18,405 nt of DNA from NCBI GenBank assembly GCA_944363755.1, contig CALVVC010000008.1, positions 1-18,405 of the forward strand. The letters run 5' to 3'. The stretch is from an uncultured Bacilli bacterium. Lineage in GTDB: Bacteria > Bacillota_I > Bacilli_A > RF39 > UBA660. Positions 1,085 through 17,720 of the stretch are shown in pieces; the stretch's first letter is position 1; each line of letters opens with the position of its first letter. The translations under genes were made by a program, and so were the position numbers. The notes beneath the pieces were generated by a model that was not told the origin of the DNA, did not search any database, and saw only the letters and a list, made by a program, of their open reading frames with translations.

Positions 1085-4000
1085 TTATCTTGACAAGTTC
1101 TTAGTCTTATTTCTATAAGAAATATATATTATAGAAGCACCTATTATTATTAATATTCCCCCAATTAAATAAATGTATGTAGCATTACTTCCTGTATTTG
1201 GTACTTCTACTGGTTTTGAATTAAACATTACTTCACTTTGAATATCTCCTGTCTCTAAAACATTAAATTCAACTACTGATGTATTTAAGATATATCCATC
1301 TGGTGCTATTGTTTCAGTAAGAGTATATTTACCAACTGGAAGCTTTTCTATATAATGTGGAGTATTACTTGATATCCACTCTTCTACAACACTACCATTA
1401 CTATCTTTTATTACTAAGTGTGCTCCTTCTACTTCTTCACTTCCTACCATATCTTTTTTACTTATACTTACTTTAGTAAAATCATTTACAAAGTTAACTA
1501 CATTTACTTCATTAATATCACTTACACTAAAGTATATAGGACTCTCATTTACTATTACTCCCTCTGGAGCATCTATTTGTTTTAAGGTATATTCTCCTAT
1601 TTCTAAACTATCACTTATATAAGCATCTTTAGTAGTAGTAAATTCATCTATTACCTTACCATCTCTTGTTTCTAATCTATACTTATATCCTTCTATACCA
1701 TTAGTATCTACTGTAAGTATTTTATTATTAACACTTATTGTTGTTATATCATTGCTTATATTAACTGTTTGTACCTTTCCTGTCTCTAACACCCTAAATG
1801 TTACTTTAGAGCCGGTAAAAACATAACCACTAGGTGCTTCTAGTTCTTCAAGACTATATAATCCAGGTACTAAATTTCTAACTTGATATGGACTATTACC
1901 ACTTACAAAAGTAATTGGCTCCATCACTCCATCTAATCTTTCTAGTTTCATTGTTGCACCTGCTATATATTCTTTAGTACTTGCATCTATTTTTCCTAAG
2001 TTAACTATTATAGGTTTATTTTCTATTGTAACAGTAGCATTAGGAGTTTTAGAATCTATTGTTACAACATATTCTTTATCACTTTTTATATAACCTAAAG
2101 GAGTATTTACTTCCACTATTTTATATGTACCTTCTCCTAAATCAGATATAAGAATTGGCTCATTCGTTGTAGTAATAGTTTTAACTACTTTATCTTCTTT
2201 TCTTATCTCTAAAGTTACTCCACTAATAACGTCCTTCGTTTCACTATCTATTTTTTCTATTGTTAAATTTCCTTTACTATTAGATATCATATAAACAAAA
2301 TTATTATCACTATTAGTATTATAATCTATATCTATTTCCTCATTTGTTTTAATATAACCATCTGGTGCTTTTAACTCTTTTAAAGTATATTTACCATATG
2401 GGACTTCCACCTTAAGTGGCTCATTACTACTAGTAAATGTCTTATTATAGTCTCCATCTTTACTAGTTAAATTTAACTCTGCACCTGCCACATATTCTTT
2501 AGTTTCACTATCAATCTTACCTATATAAATATATGACTTAACATTTTTCACAGTTACTTGGACACTAGTAGTATTTTCATCTATTATAAAACTCTCTTTT
2601 TCTTTATTTAATTGATAACCACTAGGAGCTTCTATTTCTTCTACATAATAAGTACCAGGACTTAACTTATCAATAGTATAAGCTTCTTTAGTTGTAGTAA
2701 ATGTTTTTATCTCATCACCATTACTATTAGTAATTTTAAGTTTCGCTCCACTTAAAGGATTACCATTCTCATCTACTTTATTAATAACTACTTGATTTTT
2801 AGAATTATAAAATGTAACTCTCTTAGTTTCCTTTTCTTCCCCTGTAATTGTAAGAGATACTTCACTATTACTAAGAGTATACCCATTTGGAGCTTCTACT
2901 TCTATTACTTTATATTCTCCTTTAACAAGCCCTTTTATACTATGTGCACTATCATCACTAGTCCACTCATCAATAATTTGATTATCACTTACTCTTACAA
3001 GTCTTAATCTTGCCCCACTAACAAACTTATTATCTAAATCTTTTTTCTCTATCAAAACTTCATTTTTTTCGTCTTTAAAATCAACAGTAACACTAGTATT
3101 ATTTTTATCAATAGTAAATTCTTTTTCTTTACTATTTATAAAATAACCATCAGGTGCACTTACTTCTACTACTTTATAAGTACCTTCTTGCATTTTAGAA
3201 GTATCAACTTCTACATAATCATTAGTTGTTGCTATAGTATCAATTACTTCATTATTACTATTAACTATATTTAATACTGCTCCACTAACTACTTCACCTG
3301 TATCACTATCTACTTTTCTAATTTTAACATTATATTTAGAATTAGTTATTGTCTTACTTACATTTAAATTATTATCAGTAATAACAACAACACTACTTTC
3401 TTCATCTATATAATAACCATTAGGTGCTGATAATTCTTTTATTTCATATTCACCAGGTAATAAATTATTTATTACATAATCACTAGTTGTACTCTCAAAA
3501 CTTGCTACTGTTTTATTAGTTATCTTTCTAACAACTTCAAAATTAGCTCCATCAAGTGGATTATTCGCACTATCTATTTTTTTAATCGTTAGACTACCTG
3601 TAGGCATAGAAACACTACTAGAAACAGTCTTTTGTTTAGTAACTGGAAATAAAGCCGCTACAAAAGATTGTTGCATAGTGTCACTCATATTACTAGGTGG
3701 AGAATAACTATAAGCTTCATATTCAGAATAATTAACAACAACGCTAACATTAACATTTATAGGATTATCTATATTAGATAGATTAACTCTTAATTTAAAT
3801 CCTTTACTACTATTAATATCTCCTATTATAGGACTATTATTTTCATCAAGAATTTGAACAGAACTATTATCAACAGATACTCTATAACTATCAAAAGAAA
3901 CATTAGAATTTACTTTAATTAAATCAGTAATTAAATATGTATAATCGCTACTTAGTTTAAAACTACTACTATTTAAACTAAAACTTGGATTAATTACAGT

Positions 4001-4573
4001 AGGATTATTTTTAGCATTAACAGCACCGCTTACTAAAGGTTCAATATATTGATAATATGAACTGGCTTTAATAACACTTTTTTGATTAGCAGTTAAAACA
4101 CCACTAGATGTATCACTAACACCTGCACTTCTATCCTGATACCACCATACTGCAATTCTTGTTAAATATTCATCATTTTCATCATTACCAGTTAAACTTT
4201 TAGCAGGATAACCATTTTGAACAATATAAGCATATCCAGAATCTAATGGTGTACTATTTTTAGTAAGTATCTGATTAGGAGACCACAATTTCTCTTTTTC
4301 AAGACAATAAACAATATATTTTTCGCCACTACTATCTGTAGCATAAAATGAATTAAGAGCGATTATTTCATCTCCATCTAAAGAAGGAAACAAATTAACC
4401 CTATCAGCAATAGGATCATTTTGTCCTGATGTAAGTGTATTAGGAGCTGTATTAGGAAGAGCATATGATATTAATATAGCTCTAGAACAAAGCATTACCA
4501 TAATTGCTGAAAATAAAATTGATATAGTTATCTTAATAAAGTCATACTTATCTTTTTTAAAAAACTTTAACAT
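1085..4573 (-). CDS. Sortase-anchored adhesin-like protein: thioester-type head plus nine SpaA/Cna-B-type repeats
   Basis: The 1162-residue protein has a signal peptide with hydrophobic core at about residues 12-36 and likely cleavage after SYA. A thioester-domain-like head follows (about 55-180; YCLE with Cys90, GYAYIVQNGYP, TRIAVWW), then a beta-rich linker region (about 195-320). Nine repeats of about 88 residues span 327-1119. The end is a sorting signal VPNTG (1124-1128), a hydrophobic helix and a basic tail. Sortase would link it to the cell wall. Most repeats keep the intramolecular isopeptide triad of the family: Lys in I-x-K-x-D, Glu before APxGY, and a terminal Asn. The canonical thioester Gln (TQxAxW) is Arg139, so the head may not form the thioester. 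Repeat 8 lacks both Lys and Glu. The start ATG has AGGTG about seven bases upstream. The gene sits between tex and the hydrolase, with no terminator before the hydrolase promoter. Ligand unknown; the domain calls are firm. Confidence 0.9.
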   Translation of the reverse strand: MLKFFKKDKYDFIKITISILFSAIMVMLCSRAILISYALPNTAPNTLTSGQNDPIADRVNLFPSLDGDEIIALNSFYATDSSGEKYIVYCLEKEKLWSPNQILTKNSTPLDSGYAYIVQNGYPAKSLTGNDENDEYLTRIAVWWYQDRSAGVSDTSSGVLTANQKSVIKASSYYQYIEPLVSGAVNAKNNPTVINPSFSLNSSSFKLSSDYTYLITDLIKVNSNVSFDSYRVSVDNSSVQILDENNSPIIGDINSSKGFKLRVNLSNIDNPINVNVSVVVNYSEYEAYSYSPPSNMSDTMQQSFVAALFPVTKQKTVSSSVSMPTGSLTIKKIDSANNPLDGANFEVVRKITNKTVASFESTTSDYVINNLLPGEYEIKELSAPNGYYIDEESSVVVITDNNLNVSKTITNSKYNVKIRKVDSDTGEVVSGAVLNIVNSNNEVIDTIATTNDYVEVDTSKMQEGTYKVVEVSAPDGYFINSKEKEFTIDKNNTSVTVDFKDEKNEVLIEKKDLDNKFVSGARLRLVRVSDNQIIDEWTSDDSAHSIKGLVKGEYKVIEVEAPNGYTLSNSEVSLTITGEEKETKRVTFYNSKNQVVINKVDENGNPLSGAKLKITNSNGDEIKTFTTTKEAYTIDKLSPGTYYVEEIEAPSGYQLNKEKESFIIDENTTSVQVTVKNVKSYIYIGKIDSETKEYVAGAELNLTSKDGDYNKTFTSSNEPLKVEVPYGKYTLKELKAPDGYIKTNEEIDIDYNTNSDNNFVYMISNSKGNLTIEKIDSETKDVISGVTLEIRKEDKVVKTITTTNEPILISDLGEGTYKIVEVNTPLGYIKSDKEYVVTIDSKTPNATVTIENKPIIVNLGKIDASTKEYIAGATMKLERLDGVMEPITFVSGNSPYQVRNLVPGLYSLEELEAPSGYVFTGSKVTFRVLETGKVQTVNISNDITTISVNNKILTVDTNGIEGYKYRLETRDGKVIDEFTTTKDAYISDSLEIGEYTLKQIDAPEGVIVNESPIYFSVSDINEVNVVNFVNDFTKVSISKKDMVGSEEVEGAHLVIKDSNGSVVEEWISSNTPHYIEKLPVGKYTLTETIAPDGYILNTSVVEFNVLETGDIQSEVMFNSKPVEVPNTGSNATYIYLIGGILIIIGASIIYISYRNKTKNLSR
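1217..3595 (-). repeat. Nine tandem SpaA/Cna-B-type domain repeats
   Basis: Approximate residue ranges are 327-411, 414-502, 504-591, 593-678, 680-766, 768-853, 855-942, 944-1031 and 1033-1119. Each begins with a strand like I-x-K-x-D, contains (S/A)GA, then E-x-x-AP-x-GY, and ends at Asn (Asp501 in repeat 2, which could support a Lys-Asp bond as known in some Cna-B domains). The DNA copies have diverged, so this is old protein-level repetition rather than a recent DNA repeat. Confidence 0.85.
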
Positions 4574-6849: not shown

Positions 6850-6878
6850 AAAAAGAACTAAGATATTTATCCTAGTTC
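6850..6878 (-). terminator. Rho-independent terminator of the tandem-module surface protein gene
   Basis: Minus strand: GAACTAGGATA pairs with TATCTTAGTTC (one G-T wobble, very tight loop), followed by TTTTT. The stop codon TAA (6867-6869) lies in the loop and stem. Confidence 0.82.
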
Positions 6879-8696
6879 AATCGTAAACGGATCTAATTTA
6901 GTACCTGTACCTCCAGTAATTATAACATTTTCTTTAAGATTTAAAACAGGACTAATAGCATTGGTTGTTGTTGGAGCGACACTAAAACTACTACCATATT
7001 GACCAATACGGCGTATTGCACTCGTTGAAATTGGAGTTAGTGTCCAATATGACGTGTTATTTACATCTATATCAAACTGTCCTGACATTAATTCCCCTAA
7101 TCTTAATAACCCTACTTTAGCATTAGTAGTTGATGGAGTTGTACTACTCATATTAGTATCTGTATATTTGGCTAATTTGTATGATGCACCACTTCCTACA
7201 GTTCCAAGATACCAAGTACTATTTTCTTCTATCATATCAGTATATGAACTTCCAACATAATTCGTTAAATAATCTCCATTAAGAAAACTTCCTATTGTGT
7301 TTGTCCTTGAAAAAGTTATATTATTTCCGAAGACACTTACTTTAAATGTATTAGAATCTTTAAGAGGAATAGCACTTACTATTTTTGTTAAATTCTTAGT
7401 CTCATGACTTACTATTCTATATAAGTTATTCCCATCCACACCAAATCTTATGTATTCTCCACTATAACGGGTATTAAGTTTCACAGTATTTAAATCTTTA
7501 TCATTATCTTCTTCCACTCTATAAGGATTATCTACAGTTCCATTTCCATCTATCACTTTAATATTAGATTTTAAATTTATAGAAGGTCGTACTCCTAAAG
7601 TTTGTAATTTATCAAAAGAATTACTATTTCCTAAATTATCTATTTCGTTTATATTTGTATTATCATAAGGAGTCAAAATCCACCAATGAAGACAATTATT
7701 TAAATAACCATTACTATAGGTTGTTCCCTTAAAACTTTCTTGATATTCATATAAATTAAGCAATCCCACTGTAGCAGTTACAACAGTACCACTATCACTT
7801 GGCCTTTTTACATTTCCTAAACTAGAAGAATCCGTTGTAGCATTCCACTTAGAATCTGTTACCAAAAAACTTTCGTAATCTCTTAAATTATATAAAAAAC
7901 CATCTACACTTGTATCATTTAACCAATCTTTAATATAACTCTCTTCAAAATCTGTACTACCACTAGCATAAGGAATCATACTTATATTCCACTGAGTTAC
8001 TAATTTAACTGTTTTTACTTCGTTATTAACACTAACTATACGCCATAGTTTTCCACTATACCAAAGATAATTATTAGGAAACTCTCCAGTTATAAATGTA
8101 TCTACTTCATCATTATACATATTATCTTTACTTATATTACTTAACGTAACTGTTCCTATTTCTCCTTCATGGGTTATTTCTTCTAATATGTGACCATTAC
8201 TTGGTAAAGATAAATCATTATAATCTAACCCTACCTCTACACCTAAATTAATCGTTACACTACTTCCTGAATTATTTATTACTCTTATTACATAAGTATT
8301 ACTTGAACCTGATGTTCCTGTTTTTTCTAAATTTATTCCTTTCTCGCTTGGTAAAGTATTTGTTTTTTCTTCTTTTATATATCCTATTTTAGTACTAGCT
8401 GGTAAATCATCTAAATAATAAAAATTAAATCTTGCTATTCTATTATTAGGATTACTCAACTCAACTTTAAAATCTTTTACTGTATTAGAAGGAACTGTTA
8501 ATGTATTACTTTCTACATCATCAACAGTAAGGGTATAAATTAAATTTCCCGTTATTATACTAATAGCATTATTCTTTTCTTTTGTTACTGTAAACATAGC
8601 ATAAGAGAAATATCCTCCTAATACTAATAAAATTACTATAATCATTACTATTATATACATTTTAGTAAAACTTACCTCTAAGAATAATTTTTTCAT
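6867..8696 (-). CDS. Membrane-anchored surface protein with two tandem DUF6273-like modules
   Basis: The 609-residue protein has one hydrophobic helix near the N-terminus (about 13-34), then FSYAMFTVTKEKNNAISI and TGNL, reminiscent of TasA/camelysin-type secreted proteins. A beta-rich region (about 50-165) is followed by two related modules (about 200-392 and 408-606). Module 1 has NYLWYSGKLWRIVSV, SYIKDWLN, GLLNLYEY, WWILTP, and VRPSINLK before GNGTVDNPY. Module 2 has LYRIVS, GLLRLGEL, YWTLTP, and SPVLNLK before GTGTKLDPF. The shared order points to an internal duplication. The resemblance to DUF6273 is from memory. There is no sorting signal, so it probably stays anchored by the N-terminal helix with the bulk outside. 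The start ATG follows AAGGAGGGG. It lies 51 bases after the 3D-domain gene, with a long palindrome between, and ends at its own terminator. Function unknown; the gene at the left edge begins with the same residues. Confidence 0.8.
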   Translation of the reverse strand: MKKLFLEVSFTKMYIIVMIIVILLVLGGYFSYAMFTVTKEKNNAISIITGNLIYTLTVDDVESNTLTVPSNTVKDFKVELSNPNNRIARFNFYYLDDLPASTKIGYIKEEKTNTLPSEKGINLEKTGTSGSSNTYVIRVINNSGSSVTINLGVEVGLDYNDLSLPSNGHILEEITHEGEIGTVTLSNISKDNMYNDEVDTFITGEFPNNYLWYSGKLWRIVSVNNEVKTVKLVTQWNISMIPYASGSTDFEESYIKDWLNDTSVDGFLYNLRDYESFLVTDSKWNATTDSSSLGNVKRPSDSGTVVTATVGLLNLYEYQESFKGTTYSNGYLNNCLHWWILTPYDNTNINEIDNLGNSNSFDKLQTLGVRPSINLKSNIKVIDGNGTVDNPYRVEEDNDKDLNTVKLNTRYSGEYIRFGVDGNNLYRIVSHETKNLTKIVSAIPLKDSNTFKVSVFGNNITFSRTNTIGSFLNGDYLTNYVGSSYTDMIEENSTWYLGTVGSGASYKLAKYTDTNMSSTTPSTTNAKVGLLRLGELMSGQFDIDVNNTSYWTLTPISTSAIRRIGQYGSSFSVAPTTTNAISPVLNLKENVIITGGTGTKLDPFTIELG

Positions 8697-8719: not shown

Positions 8720-8751
8720 TTAAGATATAATTGTTCACAATTATATCTTAA
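8720..8751. repeat. 15-bp perfect inverted repeat between two envelope genes, no U tract
   Basis: Arms TTAAGATATAATTGT (8720-8734) and ACAATTATATCTTAA (8737-8751) are separated by two bases. One arm contains the stop codon of the 3D-domain gene. Neither side is followed by a T run, so it is not a standard terminator. It could be an RNA processing or stability hairpin, a translational control element near the downstream ribosome binding site, or a protein-binding operator. Confidence 0.8.
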
Positions 8752-9419
8752 TAACCAACTCTTAATATCTTAAAAGTGGCATTCAAACTACTACCATAAT
8801 TTATCGCTTCCCTACTTGTTTCAAACAATAAATCAAAATCATATAATCTATCAAAACCTATATTTCCACCTCTATCTAACACTATCGCTTTAAAACTACC
8901 TATCTTACTATTACTTACTTCTATAACTGTACCAAAAGGAATACATTTATCACTAGCAAGTATTCTTAAAGAACCATAAGTAGAATCTTCATAATAAATA
9001 GTTTCACTTATATTATACTCTGATGCAGTTAAATCACCTATATCAGAGCCATAACCACTCATAGTACCAGTAAAAGTAGAGCCTACTGTAATAGATGGAA
9101 TATATACTTCCTCTTTAGGAGTTTCATATTCTATTTTCTCATCTTTACCTATAACTTCATCTTCTTTAGGTCCCTCTACTACTTTTGGTACTTCCTCTAC
9201 TACAGATTTCTCTTCTTCTTTAACTTCATTTTTTTCTTCTAAAGAAACATCTTCAAGAGGTACAACTTCTATAACTTCTTCTTTTACAATAGCATCACTA
9301 TTTACATAAGTAATCTTATTATTTACATCTATATTTTTTACATCAGGTTTAGTGGTACTAACAAGTAAACAACACCCCATAAATATAATAGCATTAATAA
9401 TATAAATAGTTTTTCTCAT
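8748..9419 (-). CDS. Membrane-anchored 3D-domain (double-psi beta-barrel) cell wall protein
   Basis: The 223-residue protein has an N-terminal hydrophobic segment (about 4-20), a long acidic, Val/Glu/Pro-rich linker (about 45-105) and a C-terminal 3D domain (about 115-223). The three Asp that name the family match Asp157 in ASDKCIPFGT, Asp182 in LDRGGNIGF, and Asp196 in DLLFETSREAINYG. Family members such as YocH-type proteins and MltA relatives act on peptidoglycan, so a muralytic or wall-remodelling role outside the membrane is likely but inferred. A GTG start three codons earlier (9428) is possible; I prefer the ATG at 9417-9419 because the nearest purine-rich site (AGAAAG) is too close to the GTG. 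It follows murE by 82 bases and has its own candidate promoter with spaced direct repeats. It is probably cotranscribed with the downstream surface protein gene. Confidence 0.82.
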   Translation of the reverse strand: MRKTIYIINAIIFMGCCLLVSTTKPDVKNIDVNNKITYVNSDAIVKEEVIEVVPLEDVSLEEKNEVKEEEKSVVEEVPKVVEGPKEDEVIGKDEKIEYETPKEEVYIPSITVGSTFTGTMSGYGSDIGDLTASEYNISETIYYEDSTYGSLRILASDKCIPFGTVIEVSNSKIGSFKAIVLDRGGNIGFDRLYDFDLLFETSREAINYGSSLNATFKILRVGY

Positions 9420-9447
9420 AAATATCACTACTTTCTATAGTAATATT

Positions 9448-11293: not shown

Positions 11294-14200
11294 TTATTTT
11301 TTTCTAACGTCTACTTTTAATCCCATCATTAAATCATTAACAGGAATACTCTTCTCTAATTTTTCATCTTTAATGACATCAATAGATAAAGTTTCTTCTT
11401 TAACATAATTCATATATTTATCAAGCATCCTATCAACAATTTCTTCTCCATTATAGTAAAGATTAATTCTATCAGTAATAACAAAATCAGCTTCTTTTCT
11501 AAGACTTTGGACTTTTCTAACCACTTCACGAGCAAGTCCTTCAAGAATTAAATCATCATTTAATGTAGTATCAAGTACAACGCTTATATTTCCATTACTA
11601 GAAGCACAATATCCTTCCTTATTTTTAAGAGTTGTTATAATCATATCTTCTGTAATCTTTAACTCTTTACCTAAGAATTCTGTTGTATAGTAACCTGATT
11701 TAATTCTATTAACATCATTAATATTAAACTTACTAACTAATTCTCCAAAAGCTTTAATATCACTACCAAACATCTTACCAACAACTCTAAAGTTAGGCTT
11801 AACAATATAATCCATATAAAGACTCATATCATCTTCATAAACTACTTCTTTAACATTTAATTCTTCTAAAATAATAGATTCTAACTCTCCTACAACACTT
11901 TGAAATACTTTAGGAACTAAAATGAAATGAAGTGGTTGTCTAACTTTAATAGATACATCTTCTCTAGCATTACGGCCTAAACTACAAATATCTCGAACAA
12001 CATTCATTCTATTTTCTAATTCATTTGATATTAATGATGTATCTACTTTAGGGAAATCTCTCAAATGTACGCTTTCTCCATCAGTCAAATTACGATAAAT
12101 TTCTTCTGTAACAAATGGTGTAATAGGTGCAGCCATAAGACAAAGTGTAAGTAAAACTTCATAAGTAGTTTGATATACTGCTTTTTTACTTTCTGTAAGT
12201 TCACTATCCCAAAATCTTTTTCTATTACTTCTAATATACCAGTTAGAAAAATCATCATTCAAAAAATCTACTATATAATGAACTACTTTATTCAAGTCAT
12301 AATCTTCATATGCTTTAGTTACTAAATCTAAAGTATTATTTAAACGAGATAATAACCATTTATCAACTAGTTCTCTATCTTTAACAGGAACATTATAATC
12401 TCTTGGATCAATTTTATCAGCATTAGCATACATCTCAAAGAATGAATATGCATTTTTTAAAGTTGATAAGTATTTAGAATTAACTTCTTTTAAGCCATCA
12501 TTATCAAACTTAATAGGAGTCCATACAGGAGATACATAAGGTAAATAGAATCTAATAACATCACTTCCAAACTCATTCATTAAATCAACTGGTTTAACTA
12601 TATTACCTTTACTTTTACTCATCTTCTTACCGTATTTATCAAGTAATAAGTCATTAACTAAGACATTTTTATAAGGACTCTTACCAGTAACAAAAGTAGA
12701 AATTAGCATAAGAGTATAAAACCATCCCCTAGTCTGATCAATTCCTTCACTAATAAAATCAGCTGGAAATTGTTCTTCAAATAACTCTTTATTTTCAAAT
12801 GGATAATGATACTGAGCAAAAGGCATTGAACCAGAATCAAACCAACAATCAATTACTTCACTAACACGGCTCATCTCTTTACCACAGTTTTTACATTTAA
12901 TATGAATATCATCAACATATGGTCTATGTAATTCTATACTCTCATCTATATCTTCAATCGCTTTCTCAATAAGTTCAGCCCGTGAACCTATCATCTCTTG
13001 ATGTCCACAACTACATTTCCATAAAGGAAGAGGTGTCCCCCAATATCTATTTCTTGATATAGCCCAATCATTCATATTTAATAACCAGTTACCAAATCTT
13101 TTTTCACCAACAAAAGATGGATACCAATTAACTTCATTATTATTTTTAACAACAGCATCTTTTATTTTAGTAACTTCTAAGTAATATGATGGTTTAGCAT
13201 AATATAAAAGTGGTGTATCACATCTCCAACAATGTGGATAATTATGAGTCATCTTAATTTTCTTAAATAGTTTACCATTTTCTTTTAAGTATTTAATAAC
13301 TTCTATATCAGCATCAAATACCCTCATACCTTTCCATAAACCTTCAGTATATTTACCATCTTCTCCTACAGGGTTTAAAACAGGTAAATTATATTTCTTA
13401 CCAACATTATAATCATCTTGTCCAAAAGCAGGTGCAATATGAACAATACCAGTACCATCTTCCATAGTTACATAATCATCTACTGTTACAAAGAAAGCTT
13501 TCTTATCTACTTTTAAACTAGGTATTAACTGTTCATATTCCATATATTCTAAGTTCTTACCACTATATTCTTCTAAGACTTTATAGTCATCTCCTAATAC
13601 TTTAGAAGCTAACTTTTTACCAACAATAAACTTATTACCTTGACTTTCAACAAGAACATATTCTTCTCTTGGATTAACACAAAGTGCTACATTACTAATT
13701 AAAGTCCAAGGAGTAGTAGTCCAAACAAGGAAGTATACATCTTCTCCCTTTTTCTTCATAGGAACTATAACTGTATTAGCAGTTACTTCTTTATAACCTT
13801 GAGCTACTTCATGAGAAGCAAGACCTGTACCACATCTAGTACAATATGGAAGAATCTTATGTCCTTCATAAAATAATCCTTCATCAAAGAATTTCTTTAA
13901 AATCCACCATTCTGTTTCTATATAGTTATTATCATAAGTAACATAAGGATGCTCTAAATCAATAAACTGTCCCATTTCTTTAGTCAAATCAGAAAAAGCC
14001 TTCTCATTTTCCCAAACACTCTCACGACACTTCTGATTAAATTCTTTTATACCAAACTCTTCGATATCTTTTTTATTACTAAAGCCTAGTTCTTTTTCTA
14101 CTTGTAACTCTACAGGAAGTCCATGAGTATCCCAACCTACTTTACGAAGTACTCTATATCCCCTCATAGTTTTATATTTACAAAAAGTATCTTTTAAAAA

Positions 14201-14386
14201 CTTAGCCATCATATGATGAAGTCCTGGTTTACCATTAGCAGTAGCAGGTCCATCATAAAAAACAAAGTTTTCACAATCTTTTCTATTATCAATACACTCC
14301 TTTAATATATCCATCTTCTCCCATGACTTTAAAATATCCATCTCAACCTCATGAGTCTTACCTTTTTTTAATTCTTTAAATGCCAT
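11294..14386 (-). CDS. ileS: Isoleucyl-tRNA synthetase, type 2 (eukaryote-like), with GLHH active-site signature
   Basis: The 1030-residue class I synthetase charges tRNA-Ile. The N-terminal Rossmann half has FYDGPATANGKP followed by GLHH (55-58) at the HIGH position, then GWDTHGLPVE (84-93). The CP1 editing domain (about 200-410) has WTTTPWTL and GTGIVHIAPAFGQDD. Cys458, Cys460, Cys498 and Cys501 form a likely zinc knuckle, and the second active-site loop is KMSKS (588-592). An anticodon-binding domain and a long C-terminal region follow. Overall sequence fits the IleRS2 class rather than the common bacterial IleRS1. HxGH swapped to GxHH has been described in a subset of IleRS2 with extreme mupirocin resistance. 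The ATG follows AGGAGGAG. Expression is controlled by the T-box at 14406-14632, and the gene has its own promoter and terminator. Length is typical, with no sign of damage. Confidence 0.96.
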   Translation of the reverse strand: MAFKELKKGKTHEVEMDILKSWEKMDILKECIDNRKDCENFVFYDGPATANGKPGLHHMMAKFLKDTFCKYKTMRGYRVLRKVGWDTHGLPVELQVEKELGFSNKKDIEEFGIKEFNQKCRESVWENEKAFSDLTKEMGQFIDLEHPYVTYDNNYIETEWWILKKFFDEGLFYEGHKILPYCTRCGTGLASHEVAQGYKEVTANTVIVPMKKKGEDVYFLVWTTTPWTLISNVALCVNPREEYVLVESQGNKFIVGKKLASKVLGDDYKVLEEYSGKNLEYMEYEQLIPSLKVDKKAFFVTVDDYVTMEDGTGIVHIAPAFGQDDYNVGKKYNLPVLNPVGEDGKYTEGLWKGMRVFDADIEVIKYLKENGKLFKKIKMTHNYPHCWRCDTPLLYYAKPSYYLEVTKIKDAVVKNNNEVNWYPSFVGEKRFGNWLLNMNDWAISRNRYWGTPLPLWKCSCGHQEMIGSRAELIEKAIEDIDESIELHRPYVDDIHIKCKNCGKEMSRVSEVIDCWFDSGSMPFAQYHYPFENKELFEEQFPADFISEGIDQTRGWFYTLMLISTFVTGKSPYKNVLVNDLLLDKYGKKMSKSKGNIVKPVDLMNEFGSDVIRFYLPYVSPVWTPIKFDNDGLKEVNSKYLSTLKNAYSFFEMYANADKIDPRDYNVPVKDRELVDKWLLSRLNNTLDLVTKAYEDYDLNKVVHYIVDFLNDDFSNWYIRSNRKRFWDSELTESKKAVYQTTYEVLLTLCLMAAPITPFVTEEIYRNLTDGESVHLRDFPKVDTSLISNELENRMNVVRDICSLGRNAREDVSIKVRQPLHFILVPKVFQSVVGELESIILEELNVKEVVYEDDMSLYMDYIVKPNFRVVGKMFGSDIKAFGELVSKFNINDVNRIKSGYYTTEFLGKELKITEDMIITTLKNKEGYCASSNGNISVVLDTTLNDDLILEGLAREVVRKVQSLRKEADFVITDRINLYYNGEEIVDRMLDKYMNYVKEETLSIDVIKDEKLEKSIPVNDLMMGLKVDVRKK

Positions 14387-14405
14387 AAACTATCTCCTCC
14401 TAAAC

Positions 14406-14473
14406 AAAAAATCTATGAATCATAAGGGAGTATAAAAGGAGTATACTCGGTACCACCTTAGTTCATAGATTTT
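14406..14473 (-). terminator. T-box regulated terminator
   Basis: Minus strand: AAATCTATGAACTAAGG pairs with CCTTATGATTCATAGATTT (small bulge), with an inner GAGTATA/TATACTC helix, ending in TTTTTT. The first arm includes part of the T-box, so this hairpin and the antiterminator exclude each other. Confidence 0.88.
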
Positions 14474-14685: not shown

Positions 14686-15843
14686 TTACCTTATAACTCT
14701 ACTAGTATCTAAACTAGGAGGTTTTGAAAAAGCATTCTCAGTACTATTAATTGATTCTAAAGCCTCTCTCATACTATCTAATTGCGCTCTTTTAATAGCA
14801 ATATCTTGTTCTTTCTCTTTTCTTTTTTCTAGAGTTTTATCTTTATATTCTTGATGAGCATAAGAAAGACTATCTATATTATTTTTAATATCACTTTTAA
14901 TAGAATTATATCTATCTACTCCAATATCTTTAATCTCTTTTAATTCTGTATTAAACTTAGTAACTATTCTACTCTTAGTACTTGATACTTTACCTATAAC
15001 TTCATAAGTATTTAAAGCTACATTAAATTTAAATGTATTAACTTTATCATTAAAGTTATCTGTTAAATTATCTTTCTTACTCTTAAAATATTTAACAACT
15101 CTATTAGTAGCTTTACCAAGATAACAAGATTGCCTCTTTGCTTTTTGCATTTTCTCATTTATATTAGAAAAAGGAATATCTCGATTCTTAAGTTCTATTT
15201 TAACACCTTCATCAAAATTAATAGCATTATTTAACTCTTGTTCTTTCGCTTTTTCTTCTTCTTTTTTATCCATCTCTACTATTTTATTATATTTATTAGT
15301 CTCATATTTTAGTTTAACACTTTCTATAGCATTCTTAATCGTTAAATCAATTGTAGTATTTTCTCTAACTTTTTTAATAGCAGAGTTTTTAACATTAATA
15401 GCAAAAGATGAAGCACGACTAACTTTACTAACACCCATTTCTTTTATATGTGAAAAAGTATTACTAACTTCACTTCCTAAATTAATAACATCATCTTTTT
15501 TATCATTAACAAAATTAATAATATCTTCTTTTCTTTTATCTCTTATAGCAGCCTTAAAATCTTCTTTCGCTTGTTTTCTTTCTAATTTTTGTTCCTTTTC
15601 CTGCAACTTTTCTGCTTTTCTAATTTCTTTTTCCCGTTTCTTTTCAATTTTCTCCATCATTGCATCATATTTAGCGATAGCTTTCTCTATTTTAAAGCGT
15701 CTATATGGTGCAAGTAATTTATTAGAAATAGAAGTAATTCTTGCTTTTCTAAGTTCTGCTTTAGCCTTCTTATACTCATCTAAACTAGAAACTAATCTCT
15801 CTTCATTAGATTTAAGCTCTCTTTCTAATTCTTCTAAAGTCAT
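14686..15843 (-). CDS. Highly charged, helical coiled-coil protein of unknown function
   Basis: The 385-residue protein is rich in Lys and Glu, with no signal peptide, transmembrane helix or recognised catalytic motif. The first 110 residues are strongly coiled-coil-like (many KxxE repeats). The middle and C-terminal parts contain long amphipathic helices with a recurring pattern such as NDKKDDVINLGSEV and SKKDNLTDNF. This layout could suit a scaffold, a membrane-surface helix bundle or an adaptor; that is inference. I chose the ATG at 15841-15843 over the in-frame GTG at 15852 because TAAGGTG, which overlaps the stop of the upstream DUF1292 gene, is about ten bases from the ATG and only three from the GTG. 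It is the last gene of the ClpX-like/DUF1292 unit. I see no terminator after it, so transcripts could run into the T-box leader. Confidence 0.7.
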   Translation of the reverse strand: MTLEELERELKSNEERLVSSLDEYKKAKAELRKARITSISNKLLAPYRRFKIEKAIAKYDAMMEKIEKKREKEIRKAEKLQEKEQKLERKQAKEDFKAAIRDKRKEDIINFVNDKKDDVINLGSEVSNTFSHIKEMGVSKVSRASSFAINVKNSAIKKVRENTTIDLTIKNAIESVKLKYETNKYNKIVEMDKKEEEKAKEQELNNAINFDEGVKIELKNRDIPFSNINEKMQKAKRQSCYLGKATNRVVKYFKSKKDNLTDNFNDKVNTFKFNVALNTYEVIGKVSSTKSRIVTKFNTELKEIKDIGVDRYNSIKSDIKNNIDSLSYAHQEYKDKTLEKRKEKEQDIAIKRAQLDSMREALESINSTENAFSKPPSLDTSRVIR

Positions 15844-15857
15844 TTTTATCACACACC

Positions 15858-16160: not shown

Positions 16161-17720
16161 TTATCTTTTCTTTAAAGTATAAACTTTATTATTAGATAAT
16201 ATTTCTTTATCAACTATAACTTCACTATATTTACCTCTATTACTTTTAGATTGCAAAGCATGACTAACATCAAGTAATGATGTATAAACTAATTGTTTTA
16301 ACTCTCTAGCACCTGTATCATTTGAAGTAGCAATTTCTAAGATGCCATCAATATAATCATCTGTACACTTTAAATCAATATTATAAACATCTTTATAAAA
16401 CTGTTGTTTTAAAAGTATTGGACTTAACTTACCTTTTTTCAAAATATTTTTTAAGTCTTCTTTAGTAAGATTATTATACATAATCTTAGGACTAATTCTT
16501 CCCACAATCTCTGGAATAAATCCAAAGTCTATTATATCTTTATCAGTAACAGTTAAATCTTCTTCACTACTATTATTGAAACCTAATTTTTTATTTTTAT
16601 CTTTTAATATATCAACAAAGGCCCCACCTAAAACTATATTCATAAATGTTGTATCTATTTTAATTTTATCATAACTAGTTAAACTAACATCATAAACTGT
16701 TCCATCAAGGAAATTAAGTAATAAATTTTGAACTGCTACATCAGAAACTTCTAAACCTCGATTAGCAATCTTATCAAACTCATCTAAAAATATTAAAGAC
16801 TCTTCACATTTTTTAATATTTCTACTAGCATTTTGATAAGCCATTTTTAAAATATCATCTATATCTTTACCAACATAACCAGAACCTGACAAAGTTGGCG
16901 TAGAATATTTTGTGAATGGTATTTCCAAATATTCTGCTAAAAGCTTTAATGTTTCTGTTTTTCCAACCCCACTAGGTCCCATAATTAAAGGTCTCACAAT
17001 CAAATGTGGATCATTAGTCTTATAATTATCACTAATAACAGTAACAAGGCTTTCTATCGCTTCATCTTGACCAATAATTCTATCTTTCAAATAAGCCTCT
17101 AACTCATCTGTATCTATATCTCTTCTAATATTTTTATTTTTTATGTTACTACCATCTTTAGATTTCATCGCTAAAGAAACTTTTTTAATTTCTTCTTTCG
17201 CTTTTTGTTCTGCTTCAAGTTTTTCTATTTCTTTCATATCTTTTATAGTTTGATCTATAAAATCCCTTAATTTTTTCTCGTCTTTAAGTTGTGTTAACAT
17301 ATATAATCTTCTCTTAGGAATACTAATACTACCATTATAATAACTAGAAGATAAAGTAATATTACTAACTAATTCTTTTAAATCAGTTAAAGATAGTTGA
17401 TAAACATCCATTTTTACTTTACCAGTATTAACTGCAAAAGTAAAACTAGAAAACATATCATCTTGATAAAAATTTAAAGCTTCTCCTAAATCATTAGTAC
17501 CATATTTATAAAGTAATTCTTTATCCGTAATAGTAAAATAAACACCTTCAGTCAACTCACTAATAGCAAAATCAAGATCATCAACACTACAAAACTCATT
17601 ATTAAATTTATCCATAAAATAACCATTTTTTTCATCAAAACTGCCTTCTATAACTGTTACAGGATTAAATAAAAATACTTCATTAGATAATACTTCTTTT
17701 TTCATTAACATTGCATACAT
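16161..17720 (-). CDS. ClpX-like AAA+ ATPase with a non-ClpX N-terminal domain
   Basis: The 519-residue protein has an unrecognised N-terminal domain (about 1-150), a charged helix (about 155-185) and a ClpX-type AAA+ module (about 205-519). Motifs: IIGQDEAIE (215-223), Walker A GPSGVGKT (248-255), pore loop GYVG (281-284), Walker B LIFLDEFDK (309-317), GGAF (365-368), LGF (379-381) at the place of the ClpP-docking IGF loop, FGFIPEIVGR with Arg408 as probable arginine finger, and sensor 2 GARELKQ (470-476). The Cys-rich zinc-binding N-domain of true ClpX is absent. It probably unfolds specific substrates, possibly for ClpP; the LGF loop supports this, but no ClpP gene is in the window. The ATG follows AGGGGGAG. 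It heads a three-gene unit with its own promoter. Confidence 0.85.
   Translation of the reverse strand: MYAMLMKKEVLSNEVFLFNPVTVIEGSFDEKNGYFMDKFNNEFCSVDDLDFAISELTEGVYFTITDKELLYKYGTNDLGEALNFYQDDMFSSFTFAVNTGKVKMDVYQLSLTDLKELVSNITLSSSYYNGSISIPKRRLYMLTQLKDEKKLRDFIDQTIKDMKEIEKLEAEQKAKEEIKKVSLAMKSKDGSNIKNKNIRRDIDTDELEAYLKDRIIGQDEAIESLVTVISDNYKTNDPHLIVRPLIMGPSGVGKTETLKLLAEYLEIPFTKYSTPTLSGSGYVGKDIDDILKMAYQNASRNIKKCEESLIFLDEFDKIANRGLEVSDVAVQNLLLNFLDGTVYDVSLTSYDKIKIDTTFMNIVLGGAFVDILKDKNKKLGFNNSSEEDLTVTDKDIIDFGFIPEIVGRISPKIMYNNLTKEDLKNILKKGKLSPILLKQQFYKDVYNIDLKCTDDYIDGILEIATSNDTGARELKQLVYTSLLDVSHALQSKSNRGKYSEVIVDKEILSNNKVYTLKKR

Follow-up and report, generated by a model that had tools for sequence, protein, structure and literature searches.

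The window, by which we mean the whole stretch of 18,405 nucleotides analysed, carries on its minus strand a complete ileS gene (11294..14386) coding for a 1030-residue isoleucyl-tRNA synthetase of type 2 (IleRS2), in which the first class I signature motif, HxGH, is replaced by GLHH. We consider it very probable that this gene provides the sole, housekeeping and T-box-led GxHH IleRS2 of a gut-type Bacilli, predicted to be hyper-resistant to mupirocin. The host is an uncultured gut-type species of Bacilli, and its nearest named relatives are Candidatus Onthousia. The gene was delimited from its open reading frame, from matches to TIGR00392, PF00133, PF08264 and PF19302 and from matches to solved structures. 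Class I synthetases are defined by two motifs, HIGH and KMSKS. In the window protein, Gly55-Leu56-His57-His58 follow YDGPATANGKP and are encoded by GGA CTT CAT CAT (14213..14224, read from 14224 to 14213 on the minus strand), so that the reading and the position given in the first-pass annotation are exact. The second motif was found intact in the alignment, as also stated there, with a canonical KMSKS at residues 588-592 (12611..12625, minus strand). A GGAGGAG ribosome-binding site, recognized by eye, lies 7 nt upstream of the ATG (14394..14400, minus strand).

The class of the enzyme was deduced from structure-sequence scores, domain content and phylogeny. Among the best 60 of 67 distinct matching sequences of solved structures, the highest-scoring were 8c8w, 8c8u, 8c8v and 8c9d, which we take, from the aligned motifs and the paper, to be PmIleRS2, as we take two further matches to be PmIleRS1 and SaIleRS1. 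The PmIleRS2 chains scored 973-982 bits over residues 10-1002, with the GVHH chain (8c8w) on top at 982 bits compared to 973-975 bits for the three HVGH chains; the T. thermophilus IleRS reached 820 bits and the IleRS1 of P. megaterium and S. aureus 384-399 bits. The C-terminus consists of the IleRS2-type DUF5915 domain (PF19302, residues 837-1026; 11309..11878, minus strand), and PF06827, the zf-FPG_IleRS zinc finger of IleRS1, is absent. The reverse was seen in the one family IleRS1 scanned (L117), with zf-FPG_IleRS present and DUF5915 absent, and DUF5915 was present in all five other IleRS2 scanned, namely a canonical one (L151), two divergent ones (L163 and L144), one from Clostridia (L204) and a HIGH revertant (L067). 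When IleRS1 and IleRS2 sequences were aligned and placed in a FastTree phylogeny of 78 rows, a branch with support 100 separated the eight IleRS1 rows from the others, among them the window protein, the program warning that long branches meet at this split. The motif columns were removed from this tree as from the divergent-clade, revertant and 127-row trees described below. Together with a score of 949.7 bits against the NCBIfam ileS model TIGR00392 (curated cut-off 621.4), these data uphold the assignment to IleRS2. The MupA model NF000257 gave 921.1 bits, below its curated cut-off of 1900.

The window gene is thus a known enzyme variant, since the exchange of the first and third places and its link with mupirocin hyper-resistance, both mentioned in the first-pass annotation, are published for other IleRS2 (Brkic et al. 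2023, PMC10485003). In that study, G/AXHH is found in 86 of the 163 IleRS2 of the tree, hence is not rare. Exchanging HXGH and G/AXHH in three IleRS2 enzymes shifted their Ki for mupirocin by a factor of about 175 to 820, the wild-type DrIleRS2 (ALHH) having a Ki of 6.6 mM (PMC10485003). In the same study, the third-place His can replace the first His in IleRS2, the motif swap is not tolerated by IleRS1, and the motif is directly linked to inhibitor binding, antibiotic selection being proposed (PMC10485003). The window GLHH has the sequence features of this group, with Gly in the first place and His in the third and fourth. By analogy, His57 would act on the transition state in place of the first His, which is missing here, a takeover made possible by the shifted position of the motif helix in IleRS2 (PMC10485003), and the bulky third His would clash with mupirocin, raising the Ki about 10^2- to 10^3-fold over that of HxGH IleRS2. 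Because the window enzyme has the published sequence features, we infer for it a high-micromolar to millimolar mupirocin Ki together with normal catalysis. The organism would then be resistant without any acquired gene, assuming that no ileS has been missed. The literature searched yielded no biochemical or drug-susceptibility data for this enzyme or organism, and no assay of any enzyme from its lineage.

We then considered the distribution of the motif in a sample of 288 genomes of the order, all belonging to the family of the window (f1). By score, 245 genomes have a window-type IleRS2 (some as fragments), 27 an IleRS1 and 6 a divergent IleRS2, and none was detected in 10. The last groups were defined by searching the 47 genomes with a weak or no match again with TIGR00392: 33 were over the cut-off, and 10, all draft genomes, had no match above 271 bits. 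GxHH was found in all 72 window-type genomes in which the motif was read (the window's own and 71 others, out of the 245), and in a set of 80 loci, which may overlap these genomes, 79 read GxHH and the remaining one (L067) HIGH. The best 120 protein matches, close relatives, comprised 118 GxHH, one GLHN and one without residues at this position. The family IleRS1 scored 960-1010 bits in frames of 901-941 residues, with HxGH in all 27 loci (L117-L143); the divergent IleRS2 scored 645-746 bits (G017, G033, G161, G183, G198 and G227), and their motif was read in all except G227. Loci entered the 194-row alignment if their longest matching frame had at least 850 aa and their hit passed E 1e-60; the IleRS1 loci L133 and L143 were among those left out. 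The GxHH state is not special to this organism, being usual in its family. Four genera (g6, g14, g32 and g73) hold both species with IleRS1 and species with the window-type IleRS2, and such a mix within one genus suggests a recent replacement. The class sample comprised 247 genomes, of which 31 were from f1. Outside f1, full-length IleRS2 were listed in 11 genomes (families f8, f16 and f20); ten were of the broader type of the window and read HIGH or HVGH, and one (G443) was divergent with GMHH. Since the broader-type enzymes outside f1 read HIGH or HVGH, the GxHH enzyme of the family is unusual within its class.

Three relatives, L067, P0121 and P0122, read HIGH inside a GLHH/KMHKS clade that also contains P0123 (GLHH), which is 83% identical to L067. 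In a tree built without residues 50-66, this nesting has support values of 100/98 and 100/99. The reversion corresponds to a compact block of seven residues, GLHHMVA to HIGHLFG, between unchanged flanks, and this compactness suggests one multi-base or conversion event. A reversion is also reported in Deinococcus-Thermus (Brkic et al. 2023, PMC10485003). The family revertants and their 83%-identical GLHH relative are natural orthologues with which one can test what the exchange costs, by which path it proceeds and what purpose it serves. The first place is variable in another clade, that of the divergent IleRS2, where the motif stands in the context DGPITANN. Among 120 divergent-clade matches, 21 have Lys in the first place (KIHH 12, KLHH 5, KVHH 4), 89 have Gly, one has Ala and nine read HVGH; the KxHH carriers are the loci L146, L163 and L164 and 21 proteins among P0241-P0269. 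In a tree of this clade reduced from 56 to 49 rows by removal of those over 90% identical, at least six changes of the first place between K, G, A and H were counted regardless of direction, the tree being midpoint-rooted and without outgroup, and HVGH rows adjoin GIHH rows within a mostly KxHH set (SH-aLRT 98-99). A tree that included a distant outgroup had little resolution and was set aside. The published study names only Gly, rarely Ala, in the first place (PMC10485003). By title, no synthetase paper was found for KXHH in our literature search, and for GXHH only that of Brkic et al. concerns a synthetase.

Two views can be held of why the family carries the swapped motif. GxHH may be a working form of IleRS2 that became fixed through drift or under selection by something else than mupirocin (a different IleRS inhibitor, kinetics), resistance being a by-product, and we give this a serious chance, a little short of even; it contests the selective story and not the predicted biochemistry. 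The invariance of GxHH among the 72 genomes read points in this direction, the family being gut-type and exposure to mupirocin not obvious there, as do the reversion in one subclade, the variable first place in the divergent clade and the reported lack of a catalytic trade-off in the natural ALHH DrIleRS2 (PMC10485003). The existence of three HIGH relatives likewise implies that hyper-resistance may not maintain the motif. Against it stands the direct link to inhibitor binding, with the antibiotic selection proposed by Brkic et al. (PMC10485003). Under either history, intrinsic mupirocin hyper-resistance is predicted for the family.

The second motif also varies among the relatives. The 151 window-type family rows have KMSKS in 96 cases and KMHKS in 55 (for example L020, L026, L094 and L103). 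KMHKS was found in none of the 27 IleRS1, 10 canonical and 6 divergent rows, nor among the 120 close relatives mentioned above or the 120 divergent-IleRS2 matches; it was present in 120 of 120 matches of the protein search that also gave P0123. In a FastTree of 127 rows, obtained from the 151 by removing rows more than 90% identical with the same motifs, at least ten switches between KMSKS and KMHKS were counted, and seven independent pairs differ in this motif on well-supported branches. We know of no characterised class I synthetase with KMHKS, and no related description was found in a literature search outside which most subscription journals lie. A second position, Asn578-Asp579 in the window protein (12650..12655, minus strand; aligned to PmIleRS2), lies just ahead of the place of F586 of PmIleRS1 and H582 of PmIleRS2; the corresponding residues are xG in the rows of IleRS1 and of canonical IleRS2. 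At residue 579 these rows thus have Gly, in contrast to the Asp or Glu of the 151 family rows and of Acetoanaerobium noterae; the 151 rows were chosen by this residue itself, and in a separate alignment no window-type family row was without it. An association of KMHKS with Glu579 appeared in the thinned set (22 of 23 Glu579 rows have KMHKS compared to 30 of 104 Asp579 rows), but it did not reach significance when tested on independent pairs (median p 0.5 and 0.25) and is therefore not claimed. Nor does GxHH appear to require Asp or Glu579: the HIGH revertants keep Glu579, and Gly is found there in the GIHH enzyme of B. finegoldii and in many GxHH enzymes of the divergent clade. Rather tentatively, and as a less probable idea, the swap may have loosened the whole class I active site, which would bring together the KMSKS/KMHKS toggling, the acidic residue before the adenine-stacking site, the HIGH reversion and the KxHH motifs of the divergent clade; KMHKS might then adjust the function of the site a second time, either in its contact with phosphate or by excluding an inhibitor. 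We found no description in print of KMHKS, KxHH or HIGH inside a GLHH clade as seen in these relatives, and the passages at hand of the published study do not mention KxHH, KMHKS or the HIGH revertants of the family. With these variants, one can test directly how much change the catalytic motifs of class I enzymes tolerate.

Copy number was examined in the window's own genome, in its genus and in the family. In the own genome (146 contigs, 84.7% complete), neither a second ileS nor an IleRS1 was found among matches to E = 10, the other matches, on contigs C49 and C1, being ValRS (1100 bits against 704) and LeuRS (942 against 548). Of eight other genomes of the genus, seven have one match and one has none (E <= 1e-60). 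The family search, in which two candidates were scored per genome, gave matches at E <= 1e-60 in 278 of 288 genomes, one in 273 and two in five (G180, G209, G248, G271 and G275), where the genes are split over contigs or broken and are not second copies. The split-gene check covered 80 of the 82 genomes for which coordinates were still lacking, with up to 10 candidates scored in each. Two full-length IleRS were found in no family genome searched. The window ileS is therefore, as far as can be seen in a genome 84.7% complete, the only and hence the housekeeping copy, in agreement with the view that it is not an acquired extra. It is very unlikely that it is an acquired, resistance-only IleRS2 accompanied by a housekeeping IleRS1 that the assembly lacks. 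The incompleteness of the genome would allow this, and in another family of the class (f8) G336 and G352 have an IleRS1-type match in addition to IleRS2, both types having been read for G336; against it stand the counts above for the own genome, the genus and the family, and T-box control, which suits a main copy.

That control, also proposed in the first-pass annotation, is supported by a putative leader immediately upstream of ileS. At the gathering threshold of Rfam, no T-box was detected in the whole window; a permissive search of the leader gave a match to RF00230 (14421..14624, minus strand, model positions 1-219) directly upstream of the gene, with 90.0 bits (gathering 93) and E 1.5e-20. 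By eye, from the RF00230 alignment, the specifier loop contains AUC, an apparent Ile specifier, with an A after it. A hairpin resembling a terminator, AUCUAUGAAC ... UUCAUAGAU with a run of U behind it, was recognized by eye at the 3' end of the leader (14406..14470, minus strand); both arms lie in a long stem of the predicted fold, the z-score of the whole leader being only -1.6. Among 14 other family IleRS2 loci, a T-box directly precedes ileS at the gathering threshold in two (L016 and L026), and in L009 and L012 one was found at 74.8 and 87.6 bits, so the threshold hides such leaders. T-boxes of L018, L021 and L035 were not retained as ileS leaders, lying 0.36-1.0 kb upstream with a frame of 106-320 aa between, nor was a further T-box elsewhere in L016 counted. 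A T-box also stands immediately before the IleRS1 gene of L117, the one family IleRS1 locus scanned. As in T-box leaders generally, uncharged tRNA-Ile would pair with both the specifier AUC and the antiterminator, and falling tRNA-Ile charging would lead to readthrough into ileS. Upstream of the leader, the minus strand of the window codes for a lysine-rich protein of 388 aa without Pfam match (14686-15852) and, near it, a 519-aa AAA+ ATPase (16161-17720; AAA_2, ClpB_D2-small). Elsewhere on this strand are a surface protein of 1162 aa (1085-4573), in which nine SpaA prealbumin-like stretches are combined with a thioester domain and an LPXTG-type anchor, and two proteins of 609 and 226 aa (6867-8696 and 8748-9428), both with an N-terminal hydrophobic segment seen by eye and no Pfam match.

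That the motif arose from a sequencing error, or that the gene is a pseudogene or a non-IleRS paralogue, can be dismissed almost entirely, because GxHH recurs in all 72 window-type family genomes read and the frame is full-length and well over the equivalog cut-off of TIGR00392.

With the G/AXHH IleRS2 described by Brkic et al. (2023, PMC10485003) in Streptomyces griseus and Deinococcus radiodurans, and widespread in bacteria, the window enzyme shares the swap of the first and third places; it differs in coming from gut-type Bacilli, where its relatives add KMHKS, and in having Asp, not Gly, one residue before the place of H582 of PmIleRS2, and it represents an apparently sole-copy, T-box-led GxHH case in a large family. 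The ileS of A. noterae (Clostridia, L204), the nearest named outgroup found and the one Clostridia sequence compared, resembles it by GIHH, NDL, KMSKS, DUF5915 and 56% identity; in the 78-row tree it branches off immediately outside the family, and it belongs to a different class, beyond the family sampled. The IleRS2 of Priestia megaterium (8c8u and others) is of the same type as the window enzyme but differs by HVGH and LGH in its native form; this organism has an IleRS1 besides its IleRS2 (Brkic et al., PMC10485003). Among plasmid records, B. finegoldii has GIHH with NGL and Tsukamurella HYGH. MupA, the staphylococcal plasmid IleRS2, is a relative with about 43% identity; in contrast to it, the window gene scores below the MupA cut-off, is preceded by a putative T-box leader and has no second IleRS found beside it.
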